A stretch of 64,000 nt of DNA, from positions 17,097,953 to 17,161,952 of the forward strand of contig OZ034978.1 in NCBI GenBank assembly GCA_964030785.1, written 5' to 3'. How positions within the stretch are numbered: the first letter of the stretch is position 1; every line of letters starts with the position of its first letter. Of this stretch, positions 2,473 through 23,605 are shown one piece after another. Both the position numbers and the translations under genes were made by a program. The notes under the pieces were generated by a model. It saw only the letters and a list, made by a program, of their open reading frames with translations. It had not been told where the DNA came from and did not search any database. Source of the DNA: Siderastrea siderea. Lineage: Eukaryota > Cnidaria > Anthozoa > Scleractinia > Rhizangiidae.

Positions 2473-5400
2473 TCACTGGTATCCATAAGGGTAGGTCTGG
2501 AAGGTGACAGGATCCACGACTCTCTTGTCGTAGACCAATTGGTAACGTTTGTATTCGGGGAAGGTGTACAGTTGGTAGTGTTGGGGATCACGCACAATTT
2601 GGTATGATTTGACCACTTGGGTTTGGCGTGGACGTAGAAGTGGCTTCTGGATTTCGTCCAGGACATTCTGACGCATGATGTTGTAATTCAATTGGGTTTT
2701 GCCTTCGCTGTTAAGGCGGAAACCTCGCACCTTGCACTCGACGTGACCCTTTTGGGTTTGGTACCCATAGTTCTTGGGACCCCCTGACACAAATTCCACA
2801 ATGAAATCGTCAGGGTCCAATTCACTCGTAAACTCGCCGAGGTAATCGCCCAAGACCGGGGTTGCTTGATTCTCGTCTGTCCAGTAGATGACGGAGTCGG
2901 TGTCGTAGTAGAGGACACGTTCCCCCAGCTGTTCCAGGGCTGCATACAGTCGGAGCCGGGCCCAACAGGTAGTGAAACACGCCACAAAGATATTGAGGTT
3001 AGGTGACACGGGGATGTCTTCGTCTTGGTACTGGTAATGCACCTCCACTAAGTTGTCATTGATAACGGATACGTGACGTACCTCCAAAGTACTGGTATCT
3101 AGAAAACGGTGGAAGGCTTGAGGGTCATCAAATGTTTGGACTTGGGTCTTGTTCAGACGTTGTCCAAACTTGCCCCACATGGAATTGAGCATCATTTTAG
3201 CGAGGGTACGCAGCCCCGGATTCTTTTTGATGTTGTCGTACTCCAAATGGATGCCTTCATGTTCGAAGTACTCTCGAAGGTATTGCTGACGTTTGGTTTC
3301 GTCCTCACCGACCCAGGATGGCCACCCACTGGCTTCTTGCTTAATTTTCAACCAGGTGTTGACGTAGTCTTTGAAGAGTCCTTCACACGTCTCGTCAAAA
3401 TGCCAGACCTCATAGATGTACTGGATTTCGTACCCCAAGTCCACCGCTTTAGATAATTCGGGGCTACACCATGTTCCCGTCAAGGTCCGCTGTTCGTCGG
3501 TGTGCACACATTCTGCACATCTCTGTAAGGGTCGTTTGACCATCTCTTGTTCCACACAGGCAGCACAGAGAGGAAAAAGGAGTTTGGATTCATGACGGTA
3601 AGGCAGGACAGGATGGTAGAGATGACGTGGCGGCAGGACTTTGCATTGGACAAGGCCAAAGTACTGACGGATGTCGGTGTCGGCTTGAAGATGAAACGAG
3701 GATGGCCTTTGGGGTAGACACAGGTCTTGTTCACCCATGGGTACAAGGAGGTCACATCGATGTAATGTATTTGTTGATTGGGTGTCACGCGATGGTACAG
3801 TTTCACGGCATTGGTACGACCCCCGCAGAAAGCGTCACGGGGGTTGAGAGGTTCTGTGAAGTCAAGGGTCCCCAGGTACGTTCGGATGTCCAAGGAAGTG
3901 TCTTTGAGACGGGACCAATCACATTCCCACATTTCTATGACATGGTATCCGAGCTCTCTAAATTGTTGGATCCTTTGCTGGGTGGTCTCGTAGACATCTT
4001 GCATGGTTCGATCATAGTGACGTAGATGGCTTTCGTGACGAATGGGGAAACAGCGACGACACCCATGCCAGAAACACCCGTGAAATTCGTAGATGGTGTT
4101 GGTAGTGGCATCGAAACCGTCGACATGGAAGTCAGTGCCAGGGATGCAATACTCGCCGGCATTACGGGCATGTTGAATGGTCTGTTGTTGTTGGGCACAC
4201 CAGGTTAACCATTCCAGGGCCACCTTGGAGTAGTTGATATTGTTCTTCCACCCACGAACGGGTTCACTGGCAATACTGTTGGGGATCATGCGATTCATGC
4301 GTAGATCGCGGTTACAAGCAGAAGCAATGGTGATGTGGTCGAAGGGGTTGAAACCCGTTAGCGTTTCAAACAACCGTTTGAATGTCAAACAACCTTCTTT
4401 CAAGAGACGTACATCGGATTTGCAGTAGGCCACCAGTTCTTTGCGGAAGTCAAAGACCTTGTCGCGTTGGTCTTGATGCCAGGTTTCCAAGGCTTGCTTG
4501 CCTTCGGGGGACATGGTTTCAGGCATGTAGTAATCAAGGGCCGGGATGGGTCCTACGTAGTTTTGATGATCTGGATGATTGAACTTGTGGGGGAAGTACC
4601 CTTTGCAGAGTTCTGTCAATCCAAAGGTTTTGGGAAACGCCGATAGAGGCATCTGGAAGAAACTCAAAGAGTCGATGAAGCGGATACGGTCATGCTTGAT
4701 CTCTAAGAGTTTACACCCGTTCCGGAGCTGGTCGACGATCCTGTTGTCGCCATAATATTGATGAATGATAAAGTAGCCATCGTACCCTTGGAAGTTATGG
4801 GCCAACACATTAACTTGGCGGGTATCATGGAGTGTCAAGGTATCCAGCCATTCCAGGAAATCTCGGACGCAATGGTTGCCAGGGAAACACAGGGGTTGGT
4901 CGTCGTCTTCGGTTTCGGCCACGACGAGATTAGCGATGTGTTGTTCTTGGGGTTGCATGGCTTCAAAATCAAAGAAGACATGAAGGGGTGGTATGCTGTC
5001 CTCCTCATCGTCTTCCTCCTCGGGTGTGGCATCCACACCCACCCTACGTTTGGCGCGGGGACCTCGTTGCCGTTTCCTCTTTCTTTTCTTCTTGTCTTGA
5101 GTGGCTATTTGAATAAAACAACGATGAGTTGCACCGTCCACGTACTCATGACAGCAGGGGCAGTCAATGTAGCCACATTGATGCTTGTCAATGTGGCAAG
5201 CAGGAAGTAGGATTAGACATTTAGCACAGCGACGGCGCCGAAAGCAGACGGAGGAGTCTAGGTTGGTCACGGGTTTGCCGGCGTGGTCCTTGACCAGATG
5301 CATTTGGAAACAGGTGTCTCCAAAAAAGTCCCGATGACATTGTTGACAACGTTGAGTGGCTTTCTGGCCTCGAGGGTACGCCTCCAGGAAATCAGGGCAC

Positions 5401-6611
5401 TCTTTTTGGCAACAGGCCCTGCAATGACGTTTGTTGTTGTTGCATCGATGCTTTCCCTCCTCGTTATAGGGTTTCCAACAATGGGCACAGACGTAACCGA
5501 CCCCGAAAAAGGCTGGCAACTTGGTAATGACATCATAATGGCCTTTCTCGTGCAACAGGATCAATTGTTTGTCTTGAAGGGGACCAAAGGTCGTGATGTG
5601 AAAAGAACGGTCGGCATCCACCAACAGGATCTGGTAACCGGTCAGGGAAGGAGTGGTACTGAATTGGGTCAAGGCATCGTAGCCACAAGGGCCGAAGGGC
5701 ACGTTGGCCTCGTGATGGAGCAAGAGAGCCATTTCTTTTTGCAGTTTAGTTCCTTGGCGAATGCTGCGGTATTTCGGGTGTTGGTCCACTTTGGCTTTGG
5801 CGGTGACGAGGGCTCTGGCACAACAGAGATCGTCGTCATTGCGGATCTGGATAATGGAACGTTTCTTGGGTATTAAATTTCGTAGAGGTTGATGTCCGGG
5901 TTTCTCCTGGCGTCGGCGGCCGGTTCCTTGAGGGGCATGATGGACTTGAGTAATGGAGACTTGAAAGGAGTCGTCCATTTCAAATTGTTCATTGCTGTTG
6001 AGGGCTTGGGCTAAACGTTGGAATAAAGCCTCGACACGGTCGCCGCCTTGGCGCCATTCTCCTGCACGTAATCCCCAGCCCTGAAAATTATTATGGAGTC
6101 TGTTGGAGGCGATGGTAAAGTACAGGCGATCTTGATCGTGGAGGGGAGGTGTGGTGGTGGTCAACACTTGATTCACCGCGCGACGTAACCCCTCTTCTAG
6201 AGCTCGAGTCATGCTCTGATTGGGAATGAAATTCCCCCTTTGACGTAACTGGGTCTTGAAATGACGTTCACGCACTCCCAGACGGTTGCTCAAACGATCG
6301 ACATAGGGTTGGAGTTCAAAGTCAAACGTTCCTGCTCCGATCGAGGTATCCAAACCTCCCCCAGTTTGTTGAAGAAGATGGGTTTGAAACGCACGTTGGC
6401 GTTCGAAGCGATCCAAGGCCTCTTCACAAATCTCATCACTGTCCGGCATGTCTTCGGTACATAACATAGGTCCCACACAGGAAGTTGTTGTTGTCGTCTC
6501 GTCTTCTTCTTCTTTCTCAGAATCGGACATCTCTAGTCCAAGCAAGGACATGATCTCGCGTCTAGCGAGGCCACTGGGCCCCGCTTTCTCCTCATCTTGG
6601 CGAGAGGACAT
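2473..6611 (-). CDS. polB: Protein-primed family B DNA polymerase (pPolB), one frameshift
   Basis: This is the replicative polymerase of the element, expected to copy it by protein priming at the TIRs. The N-terminal frame (3480-6611) starts at the ATG 35 bases below a TATA box. It holds Cys/His zinc-finger motifs (residues about 370-500), Exo I FFDFEAM (about 545), Exo II HNFQGYDGYF (about 605), Exo III YCKSDVRLL (about 730), an EFHGCFWHGC segment typical of Polinton polymerases (about 845) and motif A DVTSLYP (about 950). Motif B (MLNSMWGKFG) and motif C (YYDTDSVIY) lie in the next frame (2473-3738). The frame changes between about 3680 and 3740, downstream of motif A. As assembled, the gene cannot give a full polymerase. 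It may be a real one-base lesion or an assembly error. No obvious slippery heptamer or splice site explains it. Confidence 0.93.
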
Positions 6612-10263: not shown

Positions 10264-10586
10264 GGTCGACCCGTCAATAGACGTTGAAGGGCTTTGTCTT
10301 GTTTGATCACGTCTCGCGTCTCTTTATAGCCTTGACGGGTATTGCGTTTGAAATCTTGCCACCAACCCCCACCTCGTTGTCGTCGGTAATGTTGTACATT
10401 ATCAGTAATGCCTTTCAAGGCTTGACCCCCTAATTTGCCTAAAGCCAGTCCAAACCCAGGCGCTGGGCCTGATAGAAACATACTCATGCCATGGGCAATT
10501 TTATCCACCAAACGGGGTTTGCGACGCATTAAAGCCCCTCCTCGTTGTTTCCTTTTTCTGCGTCGTCGTCGTTGTTGGACGGCCAT
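10257..10586 (-). CDS. Basic minor virion-type protein with two QRGG sites
   Basis: 109 residues. The Arg/Lys-rich N-terminus ends in KQRGGA (about residue 17). A glycine-rich amphipathic segment (SGPAPGFGLALGKLGGQALK, about 39-58) follows, then a second RRQRGGG site (about 69) and a basic helical C-terminus. Two GG sites around an amphipathic part recall adenovirus pVI/pX-type precursors. ATAAAAAG lies 35-40 bases above the start. The first 58 bases overlap the end of the upstream membrane-protein gene. Confidence 0.75.
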   Translation of the reverse strand: MAVQQRRRRRKRKQRGGALMRRKPRLVDKIAHGMSMFLSGPAPGFGLALGKLGGQALKGITDNVQHYRRQRGGGWWQDFKRNTRQGYKETRDVIKQDKALQRLLTGRPW

Positions 10587-11197
10587 GGTTCTAAGAGTGT
10601 GGGACTAGGAGGGAGCGGCTTTTTATGGATCCAATAGTCTTTGGGTCTCAAGGGACGAGGACATCCATCTACATAGCATAGGCCTTCCAAGGGTTGGTAC
10701 ACAAAATGACCATGGTAATCTTGGAGACATCGTTTGGGTAATGGAGGGGTGAAATCCACAATGGTATCATCCAAGGTTTGCATCTTGATTAAAAATCGTT
10801 CCAGATCCTCCAAGGGAATACCCCGCACATGGGTTTTCAATTCGGTCAAGGCTTTGGCATAGGTGGTAAACGCAAATCGACTCATGGTCACTTTAAATCG
10901 GTATTGTTTAAAATCATTCCATCCTTTGACCACGGTGCCCACCGCCGCCAAACAGGCTACCAACGTACTATTTTCCAAAAGGGGGCCCGCAATCATACCA
11001 GCGGCCATCAGGAGTAAGGCCAACCCATTGAACAAGGCATTGACACACCTGTAATGATTCAACATTTTTCGATAACACCACCATTGTTGATGATAAAAGG
11101 CATACAAGGAATCCATGCGTTGTAATAATTCCGGGGGGAAGGGAAGACCATGCTGTTTCGATCCATTCAATAATGACACGACGGTTTTCATCCTCAT
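10529..11197 (-). CDS. Two-TM membrane protein of Mavericks, function unknown
   Basis: 222 residues. The N-terminal 45 residues are soluble with aromatic clusters (YHQQWWCYRKMLNHY). Two hydrophobic helices (about 52-72, ALFNGLALLLMAAGMIAG, and about 78-92) are joined by a short turn. A basic, helical region and a proline-rich cytosol-like tail ending in an acidic stretch follow. A two-TM protein is often present in Mavericks beside the capsid genes; whether it sits in a virion membrane or the host membrane is unknown. The start ATGA overlaps the stop of the upstream Gly-rich gene. Confidence 0.75.
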   Translation of the reverse strand: MRMKTVVSLLNGSKQHGLPFPPELLQRMDSLYAFYHQQWWCYRKMLNHYRCVNALFNGLALLLMAAGMIAGPLLENSTLVACLAAVGTVVKGWNDFKQYRFKVTMSRFAFTTYAKALTELKTHVRGIPLEDLERFLIKMQTLDDTIVDFTPPLPKRCLQDYHGHFVYQPLEGLCYVDGCPRPLRPKDYWIHKKPLPPSPTLLEPWPSNNDDDAEKGNNEEGL

Positions 11198-12143: not shown

Positions 12144-12149
12144 TTTATA
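12144..12149 (-). promoter_or_regulatory. TATA box of the Gly-rich gene
   Basis: TATAAAGGCACC on the minus strand, about 40 bases above the ATG at 12105. It overlaps the last codons of the ATPase gene. Confidence 0.6.
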
Positions 12150-12798
12150 GTCGTTTTTGATAGGTGCGAGTCCATCCTTCGTCTTTTAACAGGTGACTCA
12201 ATACACGTTGTTGATCGGAGGAGGCCGGATGTAAATCCAAGACCAAATACCCATACGGTCGTGTAGTGGCTTGATGAAATGTCTCCAACGTGTCTTTCCA
12301 CGTGGTCGGAAACGATTGAAGCATGACATTGCGTACCCCTAATTGATCTCGGGGGTTCTTGAACGCCACGATGTAATGGGCATTGCGGGATATACTTTTC
12401 GCATAGCGACCCACGGGAAACATGTCTTGGCACAAGTAGAGCACAGTCACCCCTTGATGATGCGAATGTTTGGTGAATAAATCCAACACGCGTTTATCGT
12501 GACTCCCTTCATCCATTAAATCATCCAAGACCAGGACCCCCTGTCCTTCAGGAAACCATTGCACTAAGGCCTCATGATCGGGAATCCCTTCGTGAAACAC
12601 CACCCCTTGATCTTGCATGCCTTGAAATCGATCTTGCCAGGCCCCATAACAATAATGTAGTTGGGTCGGTGGACTTTCAAACAAATCCGGGTTGTCTACC
12701 AAGAGTTTTTCCGTAAACGCGGTTTTACCACATCCCGAAGGACCCACCACCAAGATAGAGGAGGGGGTATGAAAACGAAACGGTTTCCCCGTTTGCAT
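12145..12798 (-). CDS. Genome-packaging ATPase (A32/FtsK-HerA type)
   Basis: 217 residues, a normal size for the Maverick ATPase. Walker A is GPSGCGKT (about residues 19-26). Walker B is GVLVLDDLMDE (about 86-96). A sensor-type LYLCQDMF segment follows at about 119. The family pumps genomes into capsids of double-jelly-roll viruses. The protein starts at the ATG of MQTGKPFRFH, close to the family pattern in which a short strand precedes Walker A. A tRNA-like Pol III unit lies just upstream. Confidence 0.93.
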   Translation of the reverse strand: MQTGKPFRFHTPSSILVVGPSGCGKTAFTEKLLVDNPDLFESPPTQLHYCYGAWQDRFQGMQDQGVVFHEGIPDHEALVQWFPEGQGVLVLDDLMDEGSHDKRVLDLFTKHSHHQGVTVLYLCQDMFPVGRYAKSISRNAHYIVAFKNPRDQLGVRNVMLQSFPTTWKDTLETFHQATTRPYGYLVLDLHPASSDQQRVLSHLLKDEGWTRTYQKRL

Positions 12799-12844
12799 GA
12801 TGATGACGAACTACCCCTTAGAAAAAAAAAGGCACCTTTTTATT

Positions 12845-12928
12845 GGAATCGGTGGGACTCGAACCCACGCACGACCCAATCCCTATCTGAATCAAGGTCC
12901 AAGGCTCTACCCACTGAGCTACGACTCC
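12845..12928 (-). tRNA. tRNA-like Pol III gene inside the Maverick (decoding doubtful)
   Basis: The 84-nt sequence has a fully paired 7-bp acceptor stem (12922-12928 with 12845-12851). It has a 4-bp D stem around an 8-nt loop, and a 5-bp T stem with loop TTCGAGT (12852-12868). The A box TAGCTCAGTGGG and B box GGTTCGAGTCC match consensus. A run of at least nine T, a Pol III stop, lies about 15-25 bases downstream on the minus strand. The middle is poor. The best class II fold gives an anticodon stem with one mismatch and one G-U, base 33 is C rather than T, and the long variable arm does not pair. An intron-containing class I tRNA fits no better. It is either a decayed tRNA or a non-decoding small RNA comparable in type to adenovirus VA RNA. 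It sits in the only large gap of the leftward block. Confidence 0.75.
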
Positions 12929-12951: not shown

Positions 12952-12957
12952 TTTATT
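12952..12957 (-). terminator. Poly(A) signal AATAAA at the protease stop codon
   Basis: AATAAA on the minus strand begins inside the TAA stop codon of the protease gene, so capsid/protease mRNAs probably end just beyond, near the tRNA-like gene. Confidence 0.55.
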
Positions 12958-13496
12958 TAAGCATTACATTGATGATACGGATGACAACAAAGTTGATACC
13001 ATCTGGCTTCTTGGCCTACAATCAATTGTTGAAGGCGTTGACCCGCTTGATGGTCATTACTAACATAATCATAATCCGAAAACTCATTTAAAAAGGCTTG
13101 CAAGGTCCGTCCACGGGCTTTGGCTTTCAAGTACAACAAGGCGTAATCACCACAACTCTTGCTTGTAATGGCTTGGAGGGACTTGCCATTGGTCACTACA
13201 TACTTCCAATGTTGGACAATCCAATCTCGTAACGGGGTAGCTTGCACGTACGTGTCCATGGGCAAAGCATAACTGTCCAGGACTTCACACACCTTTCCAT
13301 CCGTCCACACCGCTAACCAATGTTGTCCCGGTTGATCGTGTGGGTCGGTATTCACAATGTACCCTTGGGGTTGGGTCTTGACAGGAGTCTTGGGTAAACG
13401 ATCACAGGCCACGGTTCCGTAAAAGACCGGGTTCAATTGGGGGTCGTCTCGGGCTAAATAATCCAACTGCACATCATTCAAGGCCACATGTTCCAT
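12957..13496 (-). CDS. Adenain-like cysteine protease (virion maturation)
   Basis: 179 residues, close to adenovirus protease (about 200). The catalytic set is visible in order: His in GQHWLAVW (about 80), Asp in VLDSYAL (about 93), Gln in LQAITSKSCG (about 127) and the nucleophile Cys in SKSCGDYAL (about 133). The C-terminus has further Cys/His residues. In adenoviruses the enzyme cuts precursors at (M/L/I)xGG-x or (M/L/I)xGx-G sites. Several small proteins here carry QRGG or MRGG signatures. Its ATG overlaps the capsid stop (TGATG). Confidence 0.93.
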   Translation of the reverse strand: MEHVALNDVQLDYLARDDPQLNPVFYGTVACDRLPKTPVKTQPQGYIVNTDPHDQPGQHWLAVWTDGKVCEVLDSYALPMDTYVQATPLRDWIVQHWKYVVTNGKSLQAITSKSCGDYALLYLKAKARGRTLQAFLNEFSDYDYVSNDHQAGQRLQQLIVGQEARWYQLCCHPYHQCNA

Positions 13497-23185: not shown

Positions 23186-23599
23186 TATTATTAAAAGGAA
23201 CTCAAAGGAATACTCATATTATCAAAAGGAACTCAAAGGAACACTCATCCTCTGCAAGCCACATTAAAATATTTTCTTTCCCAAATGCCTTTTGCTTGAT
23301 GTGCCATATCAAATCCATATCTGGGTTACCCCCGTTCCCAACATTGGACTTTGGACTTTGAGCCCACGTTTTCTCAGCGGGTTTACTTCCCCTTGAGCCC
23401 ACGATCCTATTTTCACACTTGCCAGCGGTTTCCCTTTCCAAATCACGTGACTTCCGGTTGCATGAGCCCGCGATCCCCTTTTTTCCTTACTGGTCAGCGG
23501 GGTTCCCCTCTTAAAAACACGTGACTTCCGGTTCCGGTTATGACGTCATCCTTACATCAAAACGAGGCTCATCTTGCCACGTGATCCCACATTACTACT
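23186..23599. repeat. Right terminal inverted repeat of the Maverick (414 bp)
   Basis: Reverse complement of 1576-1989 with one visible difference. It ends ...CATTACTACT. The CRE, ETS and E-box motifs are repeated here in inverse order. Tandem copies of the GAGTTCCTTT unit stop at its inner edge. Confidence 0.95.
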
Positions 23600-23605
23600 A
23601 TTCAT
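23600..23605. other. Target-site duplication, right copy (ATTCAT)
   Basis: ATTCAT follows the element end and equals 1570-1575. Confidence 0.93.

Follow-up and report, generated by a model that had tools for sequence, protein, structure and literature searches.

The Maverick element and its tRNA-like gene

The window (the whole stretch of 64,000 nucleotides analysed here) contains a 22-kb Maverick/Polinton element on the minus strand (1576-23599). Long terminal inverted repeats (TIRs; 1576-1989 and 23186-23599), which start with AGTAGT and show 100% complementarity across 400 bp and more, are flanked by a 6-bp target-site duplication, ATTCAT (1570-1575 on the left and 23600-23605 on the right); the arms delimited by the TIR tool, 1574-1989 and 23186-23601, take in two bases of this duplication. 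All identified genes lie on the minus strand. Besides the TIRs and the duplication, membership in the Maverick/Polinton group is indicated by DNA polymerase B and an rve integrase, both matched in Pfam above the cut-offs, whereas an A32-like ATPase, an adenain-like protease and a chromodomain were all matched below them; capsid genes were not identified in the element. Among the protein matches listed, the only named relative was the stony coral Oculina patagonica, which makes a cnidarian host likely. The polymerase B matches of the window copy fall in two overlapping frames (2473-3738 and 3480-6611, minus strand). A 222-aa frame at 10529-11197 (minus strand) shows a weak match (E 5e-5, below the gathering score) to SLATT_1, a two-helix membrane domain whose name comes from bacterial defence systems.

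A single tRNA gene was predicted by ARAGORN in the 64-kb window, at 12844-12928 on the minus strand (a body of 85 nt), and the Rfam scan of the window returned one family at cut-off, tRNA (RF00005), with 49.9 bits against a gathering cut-off of 29 (E 1.1e-7). Together with this covariance score, the presence of an acceptor stem, a D arm and a T arm places the gene structurally in the tRNA family. A preliminary description of this DNA, made from the letters alone, had proposed a tRNA-like gene inside a Maverick, and both parts of the proposal are confirmed, the former by the two programs and the latter by the TIRs, the duplication and the gene content. The gene lies within the 158 nt that separate the stop codon of the protease gene from the start of the ATPase gene, on the same strand as both. 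Its upstream neighbour is the adenain-like protease gene (12957-13496, minus strand; Peptidase_C5, E 0.0015, below the gathering score), which in the window carries its own AATAAA overlapping the stop codon; its downstream neighbour is the Pox_A32/AAA-like ATPase gene (12145-12798, minus strand; below the gathering score), whose start codon lies 45 nt away from the tRNA-like gene.

Read along the minus strand, the gene opens with the 5' strand of the acceptor stem, GGAGTCG (12922-12928), followed by TA, GCTC, the D loop AGTGGGTA and GAGC, and the A box, TAGCTCAGTGGG, occupies 12921-12910. An anticodon-arm region of 35 nt (12869-12903; class I of the variable segments described below) precedes the T arm, GTGGG-TTCGAGT-CCCAC (12852-12868), which contains the B box, GGTTCGAGTCC (12865-12855); for both boxes, the assignment follows the consensus. 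The 3' strand of the acceptor stem, CGATTCC (12845-12851), is followed by the discriminator A (12844), CCA not being encoded, and by the trailer ATAAAAAGGTGCC; discriminator and trailer together (AATAAAAAGGTGCC, 12831-12844) contain AATAAA. Nine T (12822-12830), a putative Pol III-type terminator, begin 13 bases past the discriminator base and represent one of three runs of at least eight T on the gene's strand of the element. The stems (7 bp in the acceptor, 4 bp in the D stem and 5 bp in the T stem), the two boxes and the long downstream T-run had all been listed in the preliminary description and are all present, one of the seven acceptor pairs being G-U.

Conservation of the shell

A DNA search of the host genome with the gap between the two genes yielded 40 scored copies, the best 40 of 1201 candidates, at 96-100% identity. 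As selection by the tRNA-like gene itself was to be avoided, copies were also collected by protease similarity, using the window's protease and a 58%-identical homologue as queries (best 150 of 2808 and best 150 of 2812 candidates scored, respectively). From these, 120 places were fetched, the window's own included; the search with the window's protease contributed 50 of them and that with the homologue 70. Since rows were ranked by similarity to the query, sampling of the family was not random. The tRNA-like gene was present in 120 of these 120 places, adjoining the protease gene as part of the Maverick. Combining both searches gave 160 loci, corresponding to 155 distinct places (five pairs shared the same place by coordinates). 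The family is very large and young: in none of the best 150 of 2808 candidates scored with the window's protease did the match contain an internal stop.

Across the 155 places, the acceptor stem, D arm and T arm (hereafter the shell) are nearly invariant. All seven acceptor pairs form in 155/155 places, and the D stem GCTC/GAGC is likewise found in 155/155; the T stem retains its five pairs in 153 places, as many as have the T loop TTCGAGT. The changes observed mostly keep the structure: the commonest one in the acceptor stem turns G-U into G-C, and the D loop is AGTGGGTA, AGTCGGTA, AGTTGGTTA or AGTCGGTTA, all of which we take to be ordinary tRNA D loops, in 152/155 places, AGTTGGGTA (two places) and AGTGGCTA (one place) being the unusual ones. 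Downstream, discriminator and trailer are identical in 154/155 places, and the T-run comprises at least seven T in 154 and at least eight in 153, at the same distance from the discriminator in 153/155. The features of a Pol III type 2 gene (A box, B box and T-run) are thus kept across copies, as far as can be read from sequence.

Changes were counted on a tree of protease and ATPase combined, whose 60 protease-selected copies comprise the window's and 59 others. The shell, D loop excluded, underwent six changes over 41 sites (0.146 per site), against 507 changes over 165 four-fold sites of the flanking genes (3.07 per site) and 1.32 and 1.64 changes per site in the spacer upstream of the gene and in the one that follows the T-run, respectively. 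It is therefore changed about 20 times less than four-fold sites and about 10 times less than the adjacent spacers, and is more conserved even than codon positions 1 and 2 of the neighbouring genes (0.302 and 0.254 changes per site). None of 20 000 draws of 41 four-fold sites was as low as the shell, and the 14 trailer positions showed zero changes on the same tree. Because copies recombine, the tree overcounts changes, at all sites alike. Nucleotide diversity ranks the site classes in the same order: 0.005 in the 5' strand of the acceptor stem, 0.004 in the T arm and 0.012 in the 3' acceptor strand. Four-fold sites of the two genes reach 0.112 and 0.139, and the spacers 0.065 and 0.039, the lower of these spacer values including the trailer; the value obtained for the D stem is an alignment artefact caused by a D-loop indel. 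By these counts, the shell is under strong purifying selection.

Among the same 60 copies (the window and L042-L100), haplotypes of protease segments were distributed nearly at random on the ATPase tree, and reciprocally. Copies of this Maverick therefore seem to recombine freely within about 1 kb.

The variable anticodon region

Conservation within the unit is lowest in the anticodon region. Between the D and T stems, 39 distinct sequences were found over the 155 places, distributed in classes I (70 places), II (51), IV (19) and III (6), with nine others. By eye, class I resembles class III and class II resembles class IV, with no confident alignment between the two pairs, and the nucleotide diversity of the segment (0.263) depends on the alignment. 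Across the larger classes, the flanking genes are on average about 96-97% identical, and at most 99%. Differences in length are located in runs of C, A and T, as expected of slippage.

Of the 120 protease-selected copies, 46 received a three-base anticodon from ARAGORN, namely Lys(UUU) in 36, Gly(CCC) in six, Gln(UUG) in three and stop in one, while the loops of the remaining 74 had 8 nt (41 copies) or 6 nt (33 copies). The window's loop in this parse is CCTTGAT, and the C at position 33 noticed in the preliminary description is right under it; this C33 is shared by the window's class. The 7-nt loop, U33 and constant anticodon of a decoding tRNA are accordingly not found together across copies. 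An intron at position 37/38 was considered and rejected, as allowing introns changed only 7 of the 120 ARAGORN calls and placed the introns at 33 or 36.

The anticodon region had also been described as folding poorly. This holds in the sense that no sound anticodon arm is formed; however, with the cloverleaf enforced, the lowest-energy form in 148/155 places consists of four to five unpaired bases and then a longer hairpin (a count judged from the opening eight characters of each form, ten forms being seen in full). In the forms shown in full, this hairpin opens with GAYC/GRTC. Its outer pairs, GAY/RTC, are complementary in 155/155 places, the third pair being C-G in 76, T-G in 55 and T-A in 24. 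Mean pairing energies over the 39 distinct segments favour native halves (-10.55 kcal/mol) over halves exchanged between classes (-8.62 kcal/mol), but the corresponding permutation was not significant: 4 of 24 arrangements of the four main classes, and 6168 of 40 320 for eight representatives, were at least as stable as the native one. The mean fold z of the segments was only -1.5 (33 segments). Although the outer pairs hold everywhere, a long apical hairpin proved by covariation was hence rejected on this halves-swap control, and we do not claim a covarying hairpin, since pairing across classes is not reliably worse. An anticodon-type stem, TTTGG/YYRRR, can alternatively be drawn with five of five pairs in 126/155 places, above loops of 9 nt (42 places), 8 nt (40), 5 nt (19), 6 nt (19) or 7 nt (6); the other 29 places have a shorter T run at the start and were scored on four pairs. 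As the pattern is permissive, it constitutes weak evidence.

Without constraint, the minimum-energy fold is a cloverleaf in 31/155 places and another fold in 124/155, rod-like in most of the forms shown. The rod was rejected as the selected form because the D-loop changes GTCGG and GTTGG break it while keeping usual tRNA D loops, and such rod-breaking loops (AGTCGG or AGTTGG) occur in 33/155 places.

On the combined gene tree, 23 changes of hairpin class were counted, where shuffled labels gave 28.5 on average; the corresponding values were 27 versus 28.3 on the protease tree and 23 versus 28.4 on the ATPase tree, where 0 of 200 shuffles were as low. The idea that hairpin class behaves as an exchanging cassette was not supported, its shuffling on the gene trees being no stronger than that of ordinary coding windows.

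Diverged copies and distant relatives

Twelve further places were chosen from 147 rows for their different-looking frames and read partly by eye. Both acceptor strands are present in 9 of these 12 diverged copies, the other three (L162-L164) lacking six bases of the 5' strand. The T-run has at least eight T in ten of them, six in L169 and is lost in L168; L165 has one T-stem mismatch and L169 an unrelated middle segment. In L167 and L168, both among the nine, only 11 nt separate the D and T stems, so that no anticodon arm is left, yet the shell is kept beside an ATPase match without stops. An anticodon arm which varies throughout, and which two diverged copies do without, appears dispensable, whereas the shell, in the main family, does not. 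Related elements without the stems and boxes at this place had been named in advance as evidence against the tRNA-like unit; in the copies read in the host genome this was not the case, apart from the partial acceptor loss of L162-L164.

For more distant elements, the same gap could be judged through the N-terminal extensions of ATPase homologues, some of which start upstream of the true start in databases and hence translate the gap. A T-arm signature was recognized in 4 of the 34 homologues with an extension of at least 14 residues (P0123, P0125, P0126 and P0179), to which P0128 was added by eye, but 30 of the 34 had no such signature, although short extensions would not reach it. When the extensions were turned back into codons by eye, the shell was recognized in P0125, P0126 and P0128 (e.g. 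GVVAQSVEP, VGSSPTDSNKK and WVRVPPIPIKR), and its end in P0123. In P0179, whose ATPase is 69% identical to the window's, RGSIPRG would read as the T arm of a different tRNA, possibly followed by a T-run, and this sequence perhaps reflects an independent uptake of a tRNA at the same place.

A viral contig collection, from which records near the window's genome may be absent, gave no relative by ATPase, by DNA pattern or by alignment of the protease (20 sequences) or the ATPase (23 sequences). In a genome contig collection, one distant protease fragment was found, in a metagenome-assembled genome (MAG), with no tRNA by ARAGORN. This contig (L161), from a MAG of Candidatus Poribacteria, carries a Maverick-like fragment with a protease relative at 44% and is probably animal DNA binned with a bacterium.

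Origin of the shell

To trace the shell, it was compared by its end bases with 24 host tRNA-like sequences from 22 loci, out of 56 matches (best 63 of 70 218 candidates scored). Among the sequences compared, the nearest was L194 (41 of 50 bases), ordinary host tRNA-Thr genes being only one base behind (40 of 50), so that either may be the nearest host relative. L189, L192, L193 and L194 have a tRNA-Thr/Arg-like head and, by eye, common flanks of 30 nt, and L194 occurs at 40 places or more at 96-100% identity. These shared flanks and numerous places indicate that the four sequences represent heads of one repeat family scattered through the genome, which may be a SINE. It is plausible, judging from this resemblance, that the shell was captured either from a host tRNA or from the head of such a repeat.

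Possible roles of the RNA

Taken together, neither decay nor decoding seems to account for the locus, and its pattern of conservation points to a selected, non-decoding tRNA-like RNA, probably made by Pol III. We hold with moderate confidence that the Maverick gene yields a structured, non-decoding tRNA-like RNA acting in trans. Pol III would transcribe the gene via the A and B boxes and stop at the T-run, and the product, an RNA of about 100 nt, would resemble a tRNA precursor to La, RNase P, RNase Z and the CCA enzyme. This RNA may then engage the tRNA or small-RNA machinery of the host in trans, as herpesviral vtRNAs do and, more loosely, adenoviral VA RNAs. A role in trans is proposed because the selected part is the one that tRNA-handling proteins see, while the decoding part is not kept. 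The acceptor strands, which a Pol III promoter alone does not require, are conserved too, and the T-run is not needed for cleavage within a Pol II transcript; both features favour a free tRNA-like RNA and, through it, a trans-acting RNA over punctuation or a boundary in cis, a variable payload, a working tRNA or decay.

Several observations nevertheless speak against a trans-acting RNA. The most strictly kept sequence, the trailer, holds AATAAA ahead of a T-rich stretch, an arrangement also suited to polyadenylation of a Pol II transcript, and the AATAAA may have this use in addition. A role in cis, whether RNA cleavage between genes, boundary or promoter, would conserve much the same bases. 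Finally, the unconstrained minimum is not a cloverleaf in 124/155 places, the hairpin is unproved, L162-L164 have lost part of the acceptor stem and L168 the T-run, and the D loops AGTTGGGTA and AGTGGCTA are unusual.

The strongest competing explanation, which we consider unlikely though worthy of attention, is such a role in cis: RNase P and RNase Z would excise the fold from a Pol II transcript running from protease to ATPase, or the A and B boxes would recruit TFIIIC as a boundary or as a promoter of the ATPase gene, the anticodon arm being free to drift. The gene's orientation, shared with both neighbours, and its location in the 158-nt gap that separates them fit this explanation, as does a shell that is kept where the arm is not, down to the two arm-less copies. 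Yet cleavage by these RNases would leave at least seven T in 154/155 places without use, the protease in the window already has an AATAAA over its stop codon, and the acceptor stem is superfluous for a pure promoter or boundary.

Two further explanations place the function in the variable segment. In the first, rather doubtful in our opinion, the shell would be a selected Pol III scaffold displaying a fast-changing hairpin, whose versions circulate by recombination as counter-defence or competition RNAs against the host or other copies, so that the tip must keep changing. In the second, still more doubtful, the shell would be a Pol III vehicle and the hairpin the working part (a guide, a decoy or an escape variant exchanged between copies). 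Four main classes, with flanking genes that are about 96-97% identical on average (99% at most) across the larger ones, would fit such a payload, and the complementary outer pairs with their changing third pair, as well as the better average pairing of native halves, agree with it. Against a payload, a representative of each main class (four of the 39 segments in all) was compared with the rest of the element in sense and antisense, and none had a match beyond shuffles; moreover, the halves-swap permutation was not significant, the length changes look like slippage, the classes shuffle no more than coding windows and two copies have no arm at all.

That the gene supplies a functional tRNA (Lys, Gln or suppressor) with which the element translates its own proteins is very improbable: the anticodons called by ARAGORN in 46 copies, and the tRNAs of polinton-like viruses, explained by codon compensation in the part of PMC12220804 used here, would speak for it, but the loops of 6 or 8 nt in 74/120 copies, the C33 of the window's class and the low conservation of the anticodon region do not. 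Least credible of all is simple decay along with the element, whether of a captured host tRNA, the alternative offered by the preliminary description, or of a repeat with a tRNA head, as the likeness of host sequences to the shell (41/50 end bases for the repeat head, 40/50 for tRNA-Thr) and the six acceptor bases missing from L162-L164 are outweighed by a shell present in 120/120 protease-selected copies and changing about 20 times less than four-fold sites and about 10 times less than spacers; by sequence conservation, decay is refuted for the main family unless the tree counts are an artefact, and drift is confined to the anticodon arm.

Comparison with known systems

A trans-acting, non-decoding RNA would have parallels in viruses. 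The vtRNAs, or TMERs, of murine gammaherpesvirus 68 (MHV-68) have no known decoding role, and these resemble the Maverick gene in being virus-borne tRNA-like RNAs with A and B boxes. They differ in carrying pre-miRNA hairpins 3' of the tRNA, whereas in the Maverick gene only 13 nt separate the tRNA end from the T-run and it is the anticodon arm that varies. According to the cited portions of two studies, the tRNA-like vtRNAs of herpesviruses are made by Pol III and their tRNA portion can be important without the rest (PMC6315926, PMC2888160), and the stem-loops of vtRNA4, rather than miRNAs, are needed for TMER4 activity (PMC6315926).

The preliminary description had suggested a non-decoding tRNA-like RNA, possibly an analogue of adenoviral VA RNA. 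The first half of this suggestion stands in so far as the unit is fixed, selected and mostly without an ordinary anticodon arm; by family, however, it is not a VA RNA. VA RNA, like the Maverick gene, is a small RNA of Pol III type with A and B boxes, and the Maverick shares with adenoviruses an adenain-like protease (a weak match here). Rfam contains a VA RNA family, and the window matched none but tRNA at cut-off, its 85-nt body having a full acceptor stem together with D and T arms; VA RNA genes also occupy a different place in their genome. A VA-like role in counter-defence is possible by analogy.

Genes of the tRNA family exist in relatives of Mavericks as well, the polinton-like viruses and virophages, a collection of which contains 558 tRNAs according to the cited part of PMC12220804. 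There, they are discussed as decoding, through codon compensation, whereas the anticodon arm of the Maverick gene is not kept. Thus, tRNA genes in polinton-like viruses and herpesviral vtRNAs are already known. Our literature search combining Maverick, Polinton or adintovirus with tRNA or RNA polymerase III returned no title or abstract opening on a non-decoding tRNA-like RNA of animal Mavericks, and a term search found no mention of tRNA in the main text of a vertebrate Maverick survey (PMC8097293) and of a protist survey (PMC10120064).

The tRNA genes of DNA viruses are usually read as help in decoding. A shell kept more strictly than the proteins of its element, next to an anticodon arm that has been let go, amounts to a natural experiment in which the two functions come apart, and it points away from decoding. 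If this is confirmed, Mavericks would join herpesviruses and adenoviruses as elements exploiting Pol III non-coding RNA, and comparing their many young, recombining copies would offer a test of the function. In three coral species, Mavericks are the most abundant classifiable repeat category according to the cited part of PMC11370458.

Lastly, tRNA-derived SINEs also have a tRNA-like head with A and B boxes, and, of the host sequences compared by end bases, a dispersed-repeat head comes closest to the shell, with tRNA-Thr one base behind. The Maverick gene differs from them in two respects: in the copies read it occupies one fixed place inside the element, and its T-run follows right after the head.
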